NCBI RefSeq assembly: GCF_007860125.1
Contig: NZ_SJPW01000002.1
Location: 1,155,768-1,219,767, forward strand
Direction of reading: 5' to 3'
Length of the DNA stretch: 64,000 nt
From: Rubripirellula tenax
GTDB lineage: Bacteria; Planctomycetota; Planctomycetia; Pirellulales; Pirellulaceae
The first letter of the stretch is position 1. The number at the start of each line of letters is the position of its first letter. Below, piece by piece: positions 52,245 to 64,000 of the stretch. The position numbers were made by a program, and so were the translations under genes. The notes below the pieces were generated by a model. The model had not been told where the DNA came from. It searched no databases and saw only the letters and a list, made by a program, of their open reading frames with translations.

Positions 52245-55200
52245 ATGATGACCGCCACCGAATGCCCATCGATTGAACGACTCAGAGACCTATCGCTGGG
52301 CCGATTGGCCGAAGAAGACAGCGATTCGCTGCTGGACCATCTTCGTGATTGTGAAGTTTGCCAATCGGAATTGGAAACGATCGGCGATGGCGAGGACTCG
52401 CTGATCCACGCCATCCGGTCCCCCGACGACGATTCGGGTTTGGCCAGCGAACCCCAGTGCCAGATCGCGGTGATCGCGGCCTTGGGTGCCATCGGCAGCC
52501 GCCCGCAATCACCCACGGTTTCGGATATCCCCGCCTTTCCCGTTTCGATCGGCGAATACGAAATCGTTCGACCGCTCGGACGGGGCGGCATGGGCAACGT
52601 TTATTTGGCCCGCCACACGAAACTTGGGCGACTGGTTGCGATCAAGGTCTTGGCCAACCATCGCCTGGCCGACGCCAGAATGAAGGAACGATTCGAGGCC
52701 GAGATGCGGGCCGTCGGACGACTGAGTCATCCGGGCATCGTCACCGCTCATGATGCTCGCGAGATCGACGGCACGGCGGTGTTGGTGACGGAGTTCATCG
52801 ACGGCATGGACTTGTCCCAATTGGTCTCGCGGACCGGACCAATCAGCGCTGCAGACGCCTGCGATCTTGTCCGGCAAGTTGCTATGGCACTGCAATACAC
52901 CAGCGACCAAGGATTCGTTCATCGCGACGTCAAACCGTCCAACATCATGCTGAGAAGCGGCGGCGAGGTGAAGTTGCTGGACTTGGGCCTGGCCCGACTG
53001 CAAGAAACCATTCACGAGCCATCTGAATTGACGGGCACCGGGCAAGCGATGGGGACGGCTGACTACATCGCACCGGAACAAGTCACCGACAGCCGCAGTG
53101 TCGACGTTCGCGCCGACATCTACTCACTCGGCTGTACGCTGTTCAAATTGCTGACCGGACACGCGCCCTTTGCCGGCCCCGAACACTCAACGGCGTTCGC
53201 AAAGATGACCGCGCACGTTTCTTCGACTCCGCCAACGATCGGCGATCTGCTTCCCGACGCGCCGCGCGGACTGTCGAATTTGGTTACATCCATGTTGGCC
53301 AAAAATCCGACGTCACGACCACAGACTCCCATGCAAGTCGCTGAAAAGCTGACTCCGTTTGCGAGCGACGCCGACCTAAGTGCGTTGATTCGACATGCCG
53401 AAACGCTTGCGCCCGATCAAGCCGCCGCAAGCGGATCGCACTCTCGATCGCAGGCCAAGACACAGCCTTGGTTGCGGCGAACCGTTCCCCGGTTCGTTGC
53501 AATCGCCGCAGGCTTTATCGGGTTATTCGTCGGCCTATGCGGAGGCTTTCTGATTCGCATCAAGTCGCCTGACGGAACCGTCGTGACCATGAATGCACCG
53601 GAGGGAAGCGAGATCGGCATTCATCCGGACACGACGGATGCGACGACTCAACCATCCGCCCTATCGCAAACCGAAGCTCCTTCTAGCGAACCGTTTCTGA
53701 CGTTTGCGATTTTGGCGTCAAAGGCTGAATCGGATCGGCACGTTGCCAAGTACGGTGAGCCATCGGACGACCTGCCCATCGCCCAGGACGGGTTGCGATG
53801 GTACGCCGTGGATCCGGACGTGACGGTCGTACAGAATTACGAAAAGGATGGGCGAGCGTTTCACCTGGTGCGCGAGTCCGAATCACTGAAGTTCACCGCA
53901 ACGGACCTGCGCGAACAAGTTGAATCGGCTCAGTCCCAAGGTAGGGAACGGGTCGAACTGAGGCTGAGCGAACCGACCGGAAAAGCAATGCGGGCTCTGA
54001 CGGGTAACAACATGCAGCAGCAATTGGCGATCATCGTCAACGGCAGCATTCGCATGGCACCAACGATCCTGTCGGAAGTCGGACGCGACATCGCGATCTC
54101 GGGCCGGTTTAGCGATGGAGAAATCAAGTTCCTGATGGATGCTTTGGGCAGCGGACTCGTCGAACCGTTGTCCAAGCCGGCAGACCGGCAACCACCGCTT
54201 TCCGATCCCCAACGGTTCCAGGGCGTTTGGCGAATCGTCGCCGGGCCCAGTCATTCGATCATCGCATTCGATCGTTCCGTGCGTGATGATTCACTGTTTG
54301 TGATCGCCAGTGATCGTTCGGTTCTAGCAGCCGGGAGCATGTCGTTAAGTGATGGCGATTCAAAACAGATTGTCCTGAAAAACGCGGTTCCAGGGGGGCC
54401 GCCGGAAGAAACGGCGACCTACCGTTTCCTTGCCGACGACCGAATCGAATTTAGCTGGATCGCCCCGTCGCCTGTCGCACAGTCGTCGAGCATCGGTGGT
54501 GAAACGGGCTACGAAAAGTACGTCATCGAACGCATCGGCGACATGCCCAGCGACTTGCGACAAGTTTCGAGCCTGATAACAAGCCCGAAGATGCTGGAAA
54601 TCGATCCCGATGCTCGAGGCAAGCTGTACAAGGCTCTCACTTTGATTGAGCAAGGCAAAGCAATCGCCATTCGAAGCGTTTCGATCGCCCACACGAAAGC
54701 CCAAGCGGCCGTTCATGAAGCCGAGTCCAGCAACAACCTAAAACGGTTGGCCGTTGGTTTTCTCAACTTCCACTACGACTATCGAAAGTTCCCCGCTTCG
54801 GCATGCACCAAACGAGACGGTTCGCGGGGCGTCAACGACGAATCGCAAATTCAACCGTTCTCTTGGCGAGTAGCGATATTGCCGTACATCGGACAAGAGA
54901 ATCTGTTCAATCAATATCGCTTCGACGAACCTTGGGACAGCGAAACCAATTTGAAGTTACTGGATCAGATGCCAAGCATGTATCGCAGCCCCACCGCACC
55001 ACAGGATCAACCCACCAGTCACGCCAACTATCAAGGCATCGCCAACGGCGCCGGTGCTATCGGTACGGACGACGGCGTCAAGATGCGTGACATCCGCGAC
55101 GGAACCTCCAACACGTTGCTGATCATGGAAACTGAAACGTCGGTACCCTGGACGAAACCGCAAGACCTGGACGGGATTCCCACGTTCGCGAATACGCAGG

Positions 55201-55313
55201 CACTTCGCTATGCACTGGCCGAAGGATCCGTGCATTCGATGATGCCGATCGACATTGACAAGCTAAAAGCGCTAGTCACTAAAGACGGCGGCGAAATCGT
55301 GCGACCCGAATAG
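52245..55313 (+). CDS. Multidomain Ser/Thr kinase: zinc anti-sigma-like head, kinase, membrane helix, SecD-P1-like and DUF1559 domains
   Basis: A 1022-residue kinase. Residues 7-39 hold a zinc anti-sigma-like motif (Cys7, His32, Cys36, Cys39: HLRDCEVC). The kinase domain spans 103-370: GRGGMG at 112-117, K134 (VAIKVL), HRDVKPSN at 226-233, DLG instead of DFG at 246-248, and APE at 276-278. One membrane helix is at about 416-437. The periplasmic part contains a SecDF-P1-head-like domain (about 485-645: RVELRLSEPTGKAMRALTG, then QQLAIIVNGSIRMAPTI and DIAISGRFSDGEI), a TIGR03067/lipocalin-like segment (about 655-765), and a DUF1559 domain (about 829-1020: NNLKRLAVGFLNFHYDYRKF, PYIGQENLF, DGTSNTLLIMET). 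GGAG upstream supports the ATG at 52245. Confidence 0.9.
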   Translation: MMTATECPSIERLRDLSLGRLAEEDSDSLLDHLRDCEVCQSELETIGDGEDSLIHAIRSPDDDSGLASEPQCQIAVIAALGAIGSRPQSPTVSDIPAFPVSIGEYEIVRPLGRGGMGNVYLARHTKLGRLVAIKVLANHRLADARMKERFEAEMRAVGRLSHPGIVTAHDAREIDGTAVLVTEFIDGMDLSQLVSRTGPISAADACDLVRQVAMALQYTSDQGFVHRDVKPSNIMLRSGGEVKLLDLGLARLQETIHEPSELTGTGQAMGTADYIAPEQVTDSRSVDVRADIYSLGCTLFKLLTGHAPFAGPEHSTAFAKMTAHVSSTPPTIGDLLPDAPRGLSNLVTSMLAKNPTSRPQTPMQVAEKLTPFASDADLSALIRHAETLAPDQAAASGSHSRSQAKTQPWLRRTVPRFVAIAAGFIGLFVGLCGGFLIRIKSPDGTVVTMNAPEGSEIGIHPDTTDATTQPSALSQTEAPSSEPFLTFAILASKAESDRHVAKYGEPSDDLPIAQDGLRWYAVDPDVTVVQNYEKDGRAFHLVRESESLKFTATDLREQVESAQSQGRERVELRLSEPTGKAMRALTGNNMQQQLAIIVNGSIRMAPTILSEVGRDIAISGRFSDGEIKFLMDALGSGLVEPLSKPADRQPPLSDPQRFQGVWRIVAGPSHSIIAFDRSVRDDSLFVIASDRSVLAAGSMSLSDGDSKQIVLKNAVPGGPPEETATYRFLADDRIEFSWIAPSPVAQSSSIGGETGYEKYVIERIGDMPSDLRQVSSLITSPKMLEIDPDARGKLYKALTLIEQGKAIAIRSVSIAHTKAQAAVHEAESSNNLKRLAVGFLNFHYDYRKFPASACTKRDGSRGVNDESQIQPFSWRVAILPYIGQENLFNQYRFDEPWDSETNLKLLDQMPSMYRSPTAPQDQPTSHANYQGIANGAGAIGTDDGVKMRDIRDGTSNTLLIMETETSVPWTKPQDLDGIPTFANTQALRYALAEGSVHSMMPIDIDKLKALVTKDGGEIVRPE

Positions 55314-59669: not shown

Positions 59670-60746
59670 TTACTGCGCGCTAGAGCGTGATCCGGCGGGA
59701 CTACCGCTGATCGGGTGATCCATCGGCAGCGGGCGGGCGGCGGTGGCGAAGCCCTTGTTGTAGAGCCGCTCTTTCAGGTTTCGGAAGGCACCGAAGCTAT
59801 CCGGATAGACCCACACGGTAATCGTGGTGTTACCGGGGTCACGTCCGGCCAGTTCGATGTCCAGTTCGCTGGCGCCGGTCAAGACTTTGTCGATAGATTG
59901 TCCGTGCGGTTCGGAAAGTGGTTCCAACGTCATGCCGACCAGCTGGATTCGGGTTGCCATCTGTGACCGGCCGCTGGTGCCGACAAGGCCGCGGCTTTTG
60001 TCGATCACATAGCGAGCGACGTAGCCGCGTACGGGTCCGACGGCGCCGTCGAGTTTGCCTTCTCTAGCACCCATCGCCGCGCGTTCAAAGTCTGCCTTGA
60101 TTTCGTCGACCAAGCGATCGACCGGAACGACTGACAAGAGGTTACCCCGGAGTCGCAAATGGATTTCGTCGCCGAAAACCGTTTTCGCCATCGGCGTCGG
60201 CAAATGCTCGACGGCGACGACGGTTTCGGGTTGATCTTCTAGACGTTTTCGTTCGCCTTCCAATCGAGTCAACTCGGTTTGGATCTTTTCCAATTCGGTC
60301 TGCTTTTCAGCTGCAGCAATGATCTTTTGGTCGAGCTCTTTCTTTTTGTCGTCCCACACCGACCTCGCTTGGGAAAGCAAGTCGATCAGCATTGCCCGCT
60401 CTTGCTCGCGAGCACTCAGTTGAGCGTCGTGCTGCTTGACAAGTTGTTCCAATCGATTCGATTCGACTTGGGCCGCGGCGGCGCGCATCGATTGCTGCGA
60501 CAGACGCGAAAGCTGATCGTCAGTCGCCCATAGCGAAGGATCATCGCGTTCCGCCTCGGTGTCAACGACGGACTCGAGCTTCGATTCATCGCGGACTTGT
60601 TCTTGAATCTCTTCGATCACCGCGGTCGACTGCGACCCCAGGATGACCACCAAAATGATCAGGATCCCGACCAAGTTGGCGACGATGTCCAAGAACGAAT
60701 CGTGCCCCAGTTCGATCGTCGTTCGGTTGCGTCGATTGCCACTCAT
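59670..60746 (-). CDS. ExbD/MotB-like stator protein that keeps the membrane Asp
   Basis: A 358-residue inner-membrane protein. After a basic head it has an ExbD/TolR/MotB-type helix, HDSFLDIVANLVGILIILVV, with Asp20 at the position that carries protons in these ion-driven motors. A coiled coil follows (about 85-180), then a periplasmic domain (about 185-345: HLRLRGNLLSVVPVDRLVDE, TTITVWVYPDSFGAFRNLKE). There is no OmpA-type peptidoglycan-binding motif. Its start overlaps the stop of the larger partner gene by 4 nt (ATGA). With that partner and the MotA/ExbB-like gene it probably forms one motor complex. Confidence 0.75.
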   Translation of the reverse strand: MSGNRRNRTTIELGHDSFLDIVANLVGILIILVVILGSQSTAVIEEIQEQVRDESKLESVVDTEAERDDPSLWATDDQLSRLSQQSMRAAAAQVESNRLEQLVKQHDAQLSAREQERAMLIDLLSQARSVWDDKKKELDQKIIAAAEKQTELEKIQTELTRLEGERKRLEDQPETVVAVEHLPTPMAKTVFGDEIHLRLRGNLLSVVPVDRLVDEIKADFERAAMGAREGKLDGAVGPVRGYVARYVIDKSRGLVGTSGRSQMATRIQLVGMTLEPLSEPHGQSIDKVLTGASELDIELAGRDPGNTTITVWVYPDSFGAFRNLKERLYNKGFATAARPLPMDHPISGSPAGSRSSAQ

Positions 60747-62935
60747 TGTGATCCCCTTCCGCTGACTTGGACACCGCTGCCGTCCATCAAAGACCGCAAC
60801 TGATGGAACCTTTGTTCACCTCCGGGCATCACTTCGACGTCCAAGCGGGGTTGCCAGCGTCCGCCCGGCAGTGCGACGCCCCAACGCTGGACACGGTCAC
60901 GCACGGACGTTGCCAGTTCCAGCGTCGCGCGTTCCGCATCGCGACCGATACGGTTGCCGTCGATCCCAAACATCTCCGTTGCACCACCGCTGGCCGGCGG
61001 CAGCAACACGAATCGATCTTCGTAACAAAGCACACGAATCGTTCGAACCACCGAGTTGCCTTTCATGCCGGCGACTTCCGGTGGCAGCGCCCAGTCGCGT
61101 CCCTGTCGTCGAACCAATTCACGCGGGGGCGGCGACAGATCCATTTGCATCTGGGGCGCGCCGGACTGTGACTGAGAATCATCGTCCGATGCTGATGACT
61201 GTCCTTGTTGGGCAGCCGTCGAAGGCGATCCCGCCGATTGTGTACCGCCAGTCCCGGTGGTGCCGGCCGACATTTTTGACGTTGCTTTGGATGCCGACGA
61301 TGAAGTCCCCTGGTTTGCGAATCCCTGCATTGCCGGAGCACCGGTTGCCGAGTCGCCCGCGCCGCCCGGTTCCGTTCCATCGCTTCCGGTGCCATTTTGG
61401 GTGCTGTTTTCGGAACTCGCGTTGTCGCTTTGGGTCGGCCCGCCGAGTGTCATACCATCGAAATCTTCACCATTGGCGTCGGTGACGCCTGCAGTACCGG
61501 CAAACTGACGGCCCCCGCCCGTTGAACCATTCGGAAAATCGCCCGACTTCATTTCTTGTGCGGCCGCTTTCATGTCATCGGCCCATTTCGACTGCATGGC
61601 CGGATCGATCTCGCTTGGATTGTTTTGAGTGTACGCACCCGTTCCGGTGTAACCATTGGTAGCGGCCCCACTGACCGACGACTCACCCGCTTGGCCGGAT
61701 CCGCTGACGTAGGGCGATCGCTTTGATGACGACGACGATCCGAAATCAGAGAAGTCCTGATCGCCGTGATACCCTCTGGACCTGCCATCGCGATCCAGGG
61801 ATGCAGCCGAAAGAACGCGAGGGCGCGACCGCGGCCCGGCGCCGCCTGTTCCTGAACCACTTGCTGTCGCACCGCTTGCACCCAAGCCACCCGATCCGGA
61901 ACGATTAACGCCGCCCATTCCCGAGCCGCCGAGTCCCGTTCCAATGCCACCACCGCCGTATCCGAAACCGCTTGCGATCGAGCGAGCCGATTGGTTTCGC
62001 GTCTCGCGAGCGATCACCGCATCGAGTTCTCGTTTCAAATTTGAATCGGGCTGAGCGTAAGCTAATTTGACTTCGGCAGGCACCAATTCGTACCCGAACT
62101 GATCGTCCCAATTTTCCATCGCGCCTCGCGCCATGCCGTAGGTGTCGATGCCATCGGGACGGACGACCAGCAAAGGGTAGGGCGGGGTGGTGTCGCCGTA
62201 GGTTTGCATTGCATGGTGACGCACGGCGCGGAGCGCGGCATCCAAGGGGTTGGCGCCGGATTCCGCGTTTTCGAGTTGTTGCCGGGTGATGCGATTGCCT
62301 TCGGGCCAGATGGTCAGTCCCTCGGCCACGCATTCCAAATAGATTGGGCGACGGTCGGTGCCGTTGGGGCCTTTATGAGGAACGATCACGACTCGCGGTG
62401 TGCGTTTGCCCGAATCAACGCGAAGCGTCTCGATCGTTTCCTTGACTTCTTCGATTTTCTGTCGATAGCTGGCCAACGTCGCGTCGTCCACGGCGGGTGA
62501 TTCGTCACCACCGACGGCGCGGTCGACTTCGCCGCTCAATTGTTTCAACTCCGTTCGCAGTCGGCCGATGTGGTTCTCGACGTGCGCGAGCTTGTCGCGG
62601 CGATCTTCCAAGTCTGCCGTCTGCTTGTCGCGAAAGGCGACTAGCTGGGTGACGCGAAAGTCCTCTTCCGCAATCATCTTCGTCGCGGCCTCGGCCGCAA
62701 TTTGCGGTTTGCGAGGTGCGAGATCGGCGGCCGGTTCGACGGTTTTCGCTGCCAGCAACGCATCGTTTTCGCGCTGGGCTTTCGCGCGCGCCGCATCCGC
62801 TTGTTTCTTGGCATTGTCGGTTGCGTCTTGCGAAACCAGTGCCAACAACAAGATCAGAGTCCCTAGCGTACAAACCAAAACGGCTAGGAACGGAAACAGC
62901 GATGGCGACATACCGCCCCGCTTACGCCGACTCAT
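60743..62935 (-). CDS. Large ExbD/MotB-like stator protein lacking the membrane Asp
   Basis: A 730-residue membrane protein. The helix reads SPSLFPFLAVLVCTLGTLIL: the PFL motif matches ExbD-type helices, but the Asp position is Ala18. A coiled coil (about 40-190) and a periplasmic domain (TPRVVIVPHKGPNG, then RPIYLECVAEGLTIWPEG) follow. A long Gly/Ser-rich linker (about 330-600) leads to a C-terminal domain (VVRTIRVLCYEDRFVLLPPA, GGEQRFHQLRSLMDGSGV). The ATG at 62935 overlaps the stop of the MotA/ExbB-like gene (ATGA); the end overlaps the next gene in the same way. The frame is open to 63013. Confidence 0.75.
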   Translation of the reverse strand: MSRRKRGGMSPSLFPFLAVLVCTLGTLILLLALVSQDATDNAKKQADAARAKAQRENDALLAAKTVEPAADLAPRKPQIAAEAATKMIAEEDFRVTQLVAFRDKQTADLEDRRDKLAHVENHIGRLRTELKQLSGEVDRAVGGDESPAVDDATLASYRQKIEEVKETIETLRVDSGKRTPRVVIVPHKGPNGTDRRPIYLECVAEGLTIWPEGNRITRQQLENAESGANPLDAALRAVRHHAMQTYGDTTPPYPLLVVRPDGIDTYGMARGAMENWDDQFGYELVPAEVKLAYAQPDSNLKRELDAVIARETRNQSARSIASGFGYGGGGIGTGLGGSGMGGVNRSGSGGLGASGATASGSGTGGAGPRSRPRVLSAASLDRDGRSRGYHGDQDFSDFGSSSSSKRSPYVSGSGQAGESSVSGAATNGYTGTGAYTQNNPSEIDPAMQSKWADDMKAAAQEMKSGDFPNGSTGGGRQFAGTAGVTDANGEDFDGMTLGGPTQSDNASSENSTQNGTGSDGTEPGGAGDSATGAPAMQGFANQGTSSSASKATSKMSAGTTGTGGTQSAGSPSTAAQQGQSSASDDDSQSQSGAPQMQMDLSPPPRELVRRQGRDWALPPEVAGMKGNSVVRTIRVLCYEDRFVLLPPASGGATEMFGIDGNRIGRDAERATLELATSVRDRVQRWGVALPGGRWQPRLDVEVMPGGEQRFHQLRSLMDGSGVQVSGRGSQ

Positions 62936-64000
62936 GCTGCACGCCTTGTCGGAGTCACGGTATCGTTTGGCATTCTTGCCGACAACTTGTCCACCGCGCG
63001 AGCCAGGATGCACATTGCGTCGGCCATGGCGTCATTGTTCGGATTGGCCATCTGATGCTGTAGCGCCGTCGTCGCTTCGGTCAAACGCGTGATGGCTTCG
63101 TGAGTTTGATTGATCGAGTCATAGTGCCCGGCCAGCGTTTGTTGCTGACTTGCCAATGTTTCGCAGACATCGTCCAGCGTTTCGTTCAAGACCGACGTTT
63201 GGTTGCGGATCTGTTCGGCGCTTTGACGACTGGATTGGTCCAACATCGACTGCGCCGACACGATCGATTGTTGCCAACGATCACATTGGACTTCCAATCG
63301 TTCACCGGCGACCTGCGACGAACCGGCGACCGATTCGGCGTGCTTCAATAGCGCCGGTGCAAGCGTTAGCTCGAATGCGTCGGCCAACGTCGTGTTGTTC
63401 TTTTCATGGACCTGTTGCCACTGCGATTGTGCCGAGTCGATTGTGTCTCGCCACAGGGTGGCTTGATTGGCAAGCGATTCGGCGACGGCCGCTTGAACGC
63501 CCCGGCAAAGGTCGGCAATCAGAACCGTTTGGTTGTCCGACGCTTCGTCGCCGGGCAACGTGGACGAAACCAAGTGACCGACGCGGGCGTCGATGGCGGC
63601 CAACAGCCGTTGCTCACTACGTTCGACAGGGAACTGCAAGAAGATCGCGATGACCGAGAGTACCAGGCCCATCGCGGTCGTATCAAATGCTACATACAGG
63701 CCGCTTTTCAAGTTGTCGACGGCGGCGGTTCCGCTGGAAAAATCTAATCCGCCAAGTGTCTGGGTAATCCCAATCACGGTGCCCAAAAACCCCAACATCG
63801 GAATCGCCCAAACGATGATCCGAACCAGCCCTAGTGAATCGTGAGCCGCGTCCGCATCGCGACCGGCCAGTTCGCGAAGGTCGTCAGCCAAGTTCTTGCT
63901 GGACCCGCGTTGCGATTGTCGCGTTAGCACTTCTTCGAGCCGCGTTACCAAGTGGCTGGCTCGCATCGATTGCGACAGACTTGAAAGTTCGCTCAACCAA
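62932..64000 (-). CDS. MotA/TolQ/ExbB-like motor protein with long coiled-coil tail (5' end outside window)
   Basis: Partial gene; the frame runs off the right edge of the window. Membrane helices VRIIVWAIPMLGFLGTVIGI and LYVAFDTTAMGLVLSVIAIF, then the EQRLLAAID motif, form the MotA/TolQ/ExbB channel core that drives ion-powered motors. After it comes an unusually long cytoplasmic-type tail of about 200 residues, rich in Gln and Ala and predicted coiled coil (SQWQQVHEKNNTTLADAFEL, TLASQQQTLAGHYDSINQTH). It heads an ATGA-linked train with two ExbD/MotB-like genes. The usual N-terminal first membrane helix should lie upstream. Confidence 0.85.
   Translation of the reverse strand, partial: WLSELSSLSQSMRASHLVTRLEEVLTRQSQRGSSKNLADDLRELAGRDADAAHDSLGLVRIIVWAIPMLGFLGTVIGITQTLGGLDFSSGTAAVDNLKSGLYVAFDTTAMGLVLSVIAIFLQFPVERSEQRLLAAIDARVGHLVSSTLPGDEASDNQTVLIADLCRGVQAAVAESLANQATLWRDTIDSAQSQWQQVHEKNNTTLADAFELTLAPALLKHAESVAGSSQVAGERLEVQCDRWQQSIVSAQSMLDQSSRQSAEQIRNQTSVLNETLDDVCETLASQQQTLAGHYDSINQTHEAITRLTEATTALQHQMANPNNDAMADAMCILARAVDKLSARMPNDTVTPTRRAA

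Follow-up and report, generated by a model that had tools for sequence, protein, structure and literature searches.

A candidate ion-driven motor of Pirellulales with two different axle proteins and a covarying ring

Three adjacent genes of Rubripirellula tenax, located at one end of a 64,000-nucleotide stretch of DNA (termed here the window), probably encode a 5:2 motor of the ExbB/ExbD type, powered by ions, in which two different proteins would have to pair to form the axle. In the ordinary form of this candidate motor, the small axle protein (S) keeps the aspartate of its membrane helix, the large axle protein (L) has alanine at the aligned position (residue 18), and the ring protein (B) has an aspartate, Asp258, in its last membrane helix. 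In the homologues of this system, an acid was found at residue 18 of L only in genomes that encode a second type of ring protein, termed here the HN ring after the residues that it carries at positions 229 and 258.

Gene layout and ring protein

All three genes lie on the minus strand in the order B, L, S, and both junctions are 4-base ATGA overlaps (62932-62935 for B/L and 60743-60746 for L/S; Table 1). This arrangement, a MotA/ExbB-like gene with two ExbD-like genes that overlap by ATGA, together with Asp20 in S and Ala18 in L, had been described in a sequence-only reading of the window and is confirmed here on the minus strand. B continues beyond the window: on the contig it extends to at most 507 aa, from a TTG start at L002:7223, 455 bases outside the window, and the nearest genes upstream of it, as seen when the contig is read beyond position 64000, are divergent. 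The genes downstream of S encode one bPH_2 protein and one protein without a family. Elsewhere in the window, positions 52245-55313 encode a protein kinase with a long C-terminal part, which presumably resembles a DUF1559-type pilin-like segment.

Table 1. Positions in the window of the three motor genes and of the membrane segments and residues discussed in the text
Feature	Positions	Strand	Size or remark
S, small axle protein	59670..60746	-	358 aa
L, large axle protein	60743..62935	-	730 aa
B, MotA/TolQ/ExbB-like ring protein	62932..64000, continues past window	-	355 residues in window
S membrane helix, ~residues 16-38, with D20, N24 and G27	60633..60701	-	
S Asp20 codon (axle acid)	60687..60689	-	
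L membrane helix, ~residues 13-34, with A18, C22 and G25	62834..62899	-	read from sequence
L Ala18 codon (place of the missing Asp)	62882..62884	-	
B third membrane helix, ~residues 212-236, with T226 and class-defining G229 and I230	63748..63822	-	
B fourth membrane helix, ~residues 252-275, with class-defining D258 and A261 and conserved T259/T260	63631..63702	-	
B Asp258 codon (ring acid)	63682..63684	-	numbered on the 507-residue reading
B cytoplasmic tail, residues 276-507, ending -RRAA	62932..63630	-	modelled as long helices

B has the ring features of the 5:2 ion motor superfamily, a PF01618 match (2.4e-15; 56.8 bits against a cut-off of 22.9) and the conserved threonines Thr226 and Thr260, both of which are present in 40 of 40 ordinary ring sequences; residue numbers of E. 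coli ExbB and ExbD, as we take them to be, served as a guide. S likewise has the axle aspartate of that superfamily, but the superfamily trait of an aspartate on both axle helices is absent from ordinary-ring loci. When a structural model of B (score 77.2; the model of S has a mean pLDDT of 83.7) was compared with solved structures by Foldseek, the top match was ExbB (5sv0; E 4.9e-4, probability 1.00), with TolQ, PomA/MotA and ZorA ranking lower, and the sequence of B gave weak TolQ matches only among solved relatives. B appears from its sequence to have four membrane helices, and the tail past the last of them, put at about 200 residues by the earlier reading, comes to ~230 residues, the second half of which is modelled with low confidence. 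The C terminus of B is -AA in 35 of 36 aligned proteins (window 62932-62940), possibly an end signal, and the same ending is seen in two rings without an L behind them.

The aspartate in the last membrane helix, Asp258, is invariant in the ordinary ring (40/40 rows). In an alignment with TolQ, the corresponding residue, two before the conserved Thr, is Ile in TolQ, and the six other ExbB-family genes of the same genome have I, F, I, V, V and R at this position (motif reading). The sequence-only reading had envisaged a motor with a single protonatable site, a claim contradicted by this invariant acid in the ring-axle core.

Two axle proteins with a common helix pattern

The sequence of S includes ...HDSFLDIVANLVG, with D20, and that of L includes ...SLFPFLAVLVCTLG, with A18 at the place aligned to D20 of S; the two membrane helices have a pattern in common, such that A18-C22-G25 in L corresponds to D20-N24-G27 in S. 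Asp20 is invariant among 40 aligned S proteins and is present in all 145 typed loci (126/126 with an ordinary ring and 19/19 with an HN ring). Residues 22 and 25 of L (Cys in 126/126 and Gly in 126/126 ordinary-ring loci) are as fixed as residues 24 and 27 of S, in a protein whose mean column identity is 23% versus 37% for S. Behind its membrane helix, S has a long coiled-coil-like helix (residues 76-170) and a periplasmic alpha/beta domain (~193-348), and L has a conserved periplasmic part, a long Gly/Ser-rich stretch and a conserved C-terminal part. The last residue of S is Gln in at least 90% of 40 sequences (window 59670-59680), which might also be an end signal.

Neither L nor S of the window matched any Pfam family above its cut-off, the ExbD/TolR family PF02472 included, and no peptidoglycan-binding family was found in either one at Pfam E-values up to 1, in agreement with the earlier description of their periplasmic parts as lacking such motifs. 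For the periplasmic part of S, Foldseek returned nothing at E <= 0.001 and the best VIA-align match had a Z of 6.4, in the range of common arrangements, with ExbD and TolR not among the matches listed; because neither search gave a convincing solved relative, an ExbD fold for this part was dropped. Comparison of the S sequence with solved structures yielded coiled-coil noise only.

Nine other ExbD-family genes in the same genome, among them three tandem pairs, all have the aspartate. Since the other ExbD and ExbB genes keep the axle Asp and have no ring acid, neither trait of the B-L-S locus is a habit of this genome. ExbD pairs with Asp in both members occur elsewhere in the genome at C2:863453-864721 (L010), C5:621322-623117 (L011) and C3:934069-934895 (L012), the last of which has no adjoining PF01618 match.

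Distribution and gene neighbourhood

Each of the 60 genomes searched within the genus, family and order, including the one from which the window comes, contains S, and named relatives with the system include Rhodopirellula, Rubripirellula, Roseimaritima, Stieleria, Pirellula and Blastopirellula. In a sample of 292 genomes of the phylum, 57 had an S match at E <= 0.001; the 35 genomes with a match at E < 1e-50 all belong to the same class, the best match outside of which is 9e-28, and among class members with a poor match, one is weak (G315) and one has none (G151). The three genes are direct neighbours with a shared orientation in 36 of 41 loci, a recurrence far above chance, the five non-standard loci being two that are cut by contig ends, two without B beside L and one with a divergent B. 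The conservation of gene order and of the Ala/Asp split, which the earlier reading had named as support for its view if seen across many planctomycetes, is borne out for the whole order and much of the class. In this respect B-L-S belongs to the core gene set and differs from a defence island.

BLAST among the neighbours of 61 loci gave no load-naming conserved partner gene past local synteny: the commonest recurring neighbour family occurs in 11 of 61 loci (neighbours were viewed by their first residues, and two window genes by profile). No TolA/TonB-like or TolB/Pal gene was recognised, without profile search, in the open reading frames of the window and L002 or among the recurring neighbours.

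Residue 18 of L covaries with the ring

Where an ordinary ring gene lies beside L, residue 18 of L is Ala in 125 loci and Thr in one (n = 126, of which 118 are distinct by their S end, and 95 remained after thinning and were used in the S tree). For the 69 loci from named records, ring status refers to the ring gene beside L only; seven loci without a scored ordinary ring gene (six with Ala, one with Thr) were left out of the 126, and loci with a cut-off L start were left untyped. Cases with Asp in L first appeared in three of the first 40 loci, in which the ring gene is divergent or not beside L and has His for Gly229 and Asn for Asp258; a Pirellula (L190) provided the fourth case. A profile built from the rings of these four loci (A4) and run on 296 genomes of the order scored 446-751 bits in 20 genomes and at most 234 bits in all others.

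In the 21 genomes with an HN ring (i.e., these 20 and L190), residue 18 of L is Asp in 18, Glu in one (G368), Ser in one (G360) and Ala in one (G550); the last of these holds both rings, an ordinary one adjoining L, with Arg for Gly229, and an HN ring elsewhere. All 19 homologues of L with Asp or Glu come from genomes with an HN ring, and those with Asp read, for example, MPLLDVLL and FTFLDVML, which is ExbD-like. We therefore reject a fixed Ala/Asp rule. Asp at this position in homologues of L had been named in the sequence-only reading as evidence against it, and these 19 homologues count against it in part: L lacks Asp in ordinary-ring loci (Ala or Thr in 126/126) and has an acid in 19 of 21 HN-ring genomes. 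A later check of 73 genomes without an HN ring (60 hand-picked genomes with a matched L start and 13 automatic loci, with L354 read by eye) gave 72 Ala, one Gly and no acids; the previously unseen genomes alone (n = 69) gave 68 Ala and one Gly, the other four being known named records, all with Ala.

Across 623 columns of L and 327 of S, compared between 95 ordinary-ring rows and the HN-ring rows (20 in L, 19 in S), L18 is the only column in which the two ring groups share no residue (total variation 1.00, with 0.79 for the runner-up). Of the 489 positions of the ring protein itself, 24 are near-fixed within each of the two classes (40 ordinary and 21 HN rows): 20 are the same, and the four that differ (G229H, I230F, D258N and A261T, ordinary to HN) each lie at most four residues from T226 or T260. 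His229 is present in 21/21 HN rings and 0/40 ordinary rings. This covariation between L18 and ring residues flanking the ion-site threonines is evidence for an L helix within the pore, as the sequence-only reading had guessed, and it places L18 at the ion site and favors an axle in which L pairs with S, with a single axle acid and, in addition, a ring Asp.

Repeated changes in L and retention of old ring genes

The HN rings form one clade (support 100) on a stem of 1.37 changes per column, long enough that more ring positions could have differed than did. Their hosts are scattered over families f1, f2, f7, f14, f18 and f19, and the HN ring may have spread by transfer or may be an old duplicate with many losses. 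In the S tree (122 rows), seven changes are needed for the acid in L and seven for ring type, and there are five separate supported pairs that differ in ring type (seven on all branches). The acid follows ring type in 4.7 of the five pairs on average and never goes the opposite way; the median p of the sign test, 0.0625, is the minimum for five pairs, which puts 0.05 out of reach. On the L tree (67 rows, membrane helix excluded), the acid needs eight changes, and a single clade for the 19 acid-bearing L proteins is rejected (AU p 1.2e-48). L changed in place in about five to seven independent lineages, and because L190 falls among Ala-bearing Pirellula on a branch of 0.13, the change there was from Ala to Asp. 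L290 (no full S) was omitted from the S tree, G550 (both rings) from the pair tests and L297 from the ring tree.

A second ring gene is present in the operon slot of six genomes of genus g305 (L295-L300), of G386 (L290) and of L190; intact ring paralogues span L290:4388-5461 and L190:1895-3427. The seven old rings in the tree nest with the ordinary rings of their own lineages (the placement of L290 being unsure), and all seven have lost both T226 and T260 and kept P219, G222 and G225. In g305, the old ring is under purifying selection: five comparisons gave a dN/dS of 0.07-0.34, and the HN ring gave 0.11-0.36, with synonymous sites near saturation. As judged from these sequences, the old ring protein may be a subunit that no longer handles ions.

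Second and third families

The phylum sample contains a second three-gene family (B', L' and S'), in which L' has Ser at the site and S' has Asp in 13/13 loci with L', a pattern that is also found on two cyanobacterial plasmids. Among loci of this family with Ser in L, the ring has Asp in six and Asn in three (L109, L110 and L116). S' occurs without L' in the fetched flanks of 7 of 20 S' loci, and in seven genomes of genus g46 (family f21; L318-L324) the fetched flank of S' contains neither L' nor B'. Several B proteins of this family (L108-L112, L116) start with a zinc-ribbon-like CxxC...CPYC segment. A third family (three loci) has Asp in both axle proteins, and its ring has Glu or Val and no His. 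A strict trade of ring acid for axle acid in all relatives was rejected on the basis of the Ser/Asn loci and the third family; these two families break the pattern and confine the exchange rule to the main family.

The cyanobacterial version, on plasmids of Anabaena cylindrica and Microcystis aeruginosa (L305:3664-6243 and L306:3637-6237), is compact, with an L of 153 aa that has Ser and an S of 231-236 aa that has Asp. One such short L matches PF02472 weakly (E 0.0036; 17.8 bits, below the cut-off of 25.4). These copies adjoin CRISPR III-B, CARF-HEPN and viperin genes, or an SNF2/PLD helicase and a DUF559 gene, and no relative of the cyanobacterial S was found in phages.

Discussion

Mixed axle pairs are already in print, with Asp in both members where this is stated (PMC9389320, PMC12204202), and AglQ/AglS and the TolR-like pairs are precedents for two different axle proteins, where the sequence-only reading had taken the two axle copies of a motor to be normally identical. 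AglR-AglQ-AglS of Myxococcus, like B-L-S, combines one ring protein with two different MotB/TolR-like proteins; AglQ and AglS both have the conserved aspartate, unlike L in its ordinary form, and the available part of the source states that their pairing in one complex is not known (PMC9389320). Heterologous TolR-like pairs and paired TPH-vWA proteins have been described from PVC and other phyla (PMC12204202): as here, a TolQ-like gene stands with a pair of unlike axle genes, and Planctomycetes are among the hosts, but the TolR pairs come with vWA force transducers, none of which was seen here. For the paired TPH-vWA helices, the available part of that paper names a conserved Asp, with no mention of its loss, and in the open-access literature we found no text on an axle subunit without Asp.

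ExbB-ExbD and TolQ-TolR are alike to this system in the ring fold, the two ring threonines and the ExbD-type pore helix with Asp in S. They are unlike it in that B-L-S has two different axle proteins, one of them without Asp, a ring Asp258, a B protein with apparently four membrane helices and a ~230-residue tail, and no TonB/TolA-like gene seen adjoining. An acid in the ring also occurs in GldL-GldM, where GldL E49 is essential for T9 secretion (PMC8986121, in the part available); GldM is a homodimer, whereas here one axle acid stays and the ring Asp is in a protein of another family. B further resembles ZorA of Zorya in ring sequence and in its long cytoplasmic tail (PADLOC ZorA, 3.1e-10). 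However, it reached 36.5 of 100 bits with the NCBIfam ZorA model (NF033915), below the cut-off, the axle proteins have no peptidoglycan-binding (OmpA-like) domain, and the system is general in the order instead of patchy; membership in Zorya was rejected on the missed cut-off and the absent axle domain.

In the mechanism that we propose, Asp20 of S would be the sole axle acid of the ordinary motor, and L would contribute an ExbD-type pore helix that has Ala instead of the acid and whose C22 and G25 lie on the helix face that bears N24 and G27 in S. The B ring would provide copies of the membrane Asp258, two residues before the ion-site Thr260, so that each ion would have a single axle site to bind and a circle of ring acids to pass, with no swap between two axle acids; in the accepted picture of such motors, as given in the available part of PMC9389320, two axle acids swap protons in turn and ten ions pass per revolution. 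With an HN ring (Asn258, and His for Gly229 one turn from Thr226), the acid would be restored in L. Force would be passed to the extended periplasmic regions of both axle proteins and might also reach the cytoplasmic tail of B. The data show the gene order, the conservation and the repeated residue exchange, from which we infer the pentameric ring, the 1:1 axle, ion flow, rotation and the direction of force. Because Asp258 is two residues from Thr260, and hence on approximately the opposite face by helix geometry, any direct part that it plays in ion passage is conjecture.

The ATGA overlap couples L to S, and the two genes are kept together, which counts for the mixed axle, and G360, with its HN ring and Ser in L, counts against the exchange reading. 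It is possible, if doubtful, that the mixed axle is right and Asp258 is no substitute for the missing acid: the His ring would require an acid on both axle helices, Gly229 would leave room for a small residue in L, and the ordinary motor would be a true one-acid motor. His229 lies one helical turn from T226 and separates the two ring classes without exception, and the second family, where a Ser-bearing L occurs with a ring Asp in some loci and a ring Asn in others, suggests that a ring Asp is not always needed; D258N, however, marks the two classes as perfectly as G229H, and the third family has an acid-bearing L without His. The sequences are compatible with both, a ring Asp that stands in for the second acid and a His ring that calls for one.

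The constancy of Asp20 in S of all typed loci, and the S' loci without L' in their fetched flanks, would also be expected if a homodimer of S were the axle and L a rim accessory or anchor like TonB or TolA, in which case the missing Asp would be meaningless. We consider this unlikely, in that L18 alone tracks the residues beside the ring ion site and the helix of L is ExbD-like, with residues 22 and 25 fixed like 24 and 27 of S despite the lower overall conservation of L. Quite unlikely, too, is an arrangement in which one ring protein serves two homodimeric motors, B with two S and B with two L, the latter relying on the ring acid only: the ring acid GldL E49 is essential in its own system (PMC8986121, in the part available), and stoichiometry here is not fixed, but translational coupling and the steady pairing of L with S point the other way. 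That L is a decaying paralogue, its Ala a product of drift, is scarcely credible, as nothing except the loss itself favors it, L22 and L25 are without exception Cys and Gly in ordinary-ring loci, and the acid comes back with the ring swap.

Returning to the mixed axle that we prefer, a bolder version, which we offer tentatively as a speculation, is that the ordinary form is a natural 5:1 rotary motor, with one ion site and an acid-bearing ring, that takes five ions a turn instead of ten. Such a motor would have been converted repeatedly to a two-acid motor by ring swap and a restored axle acid, by way of an intermediate that has both rings (as in G550), and one genus would have kept the threonine-less old ring as a pseudo-ring subunit under purifying selection.

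A widespread motor with one axle acid would allow natural parts to be used for testing the assumption of two equal acids and ten ions. Sister species in which ring and acid changed jointly could serve to test which ring residues allow the motor to do without the second acid, and between sister species with ordinary and HN rings the effect on step size and force could be compared. For the organisms themselves, B-L-S points to a core envelope machine of the Pirellulales.
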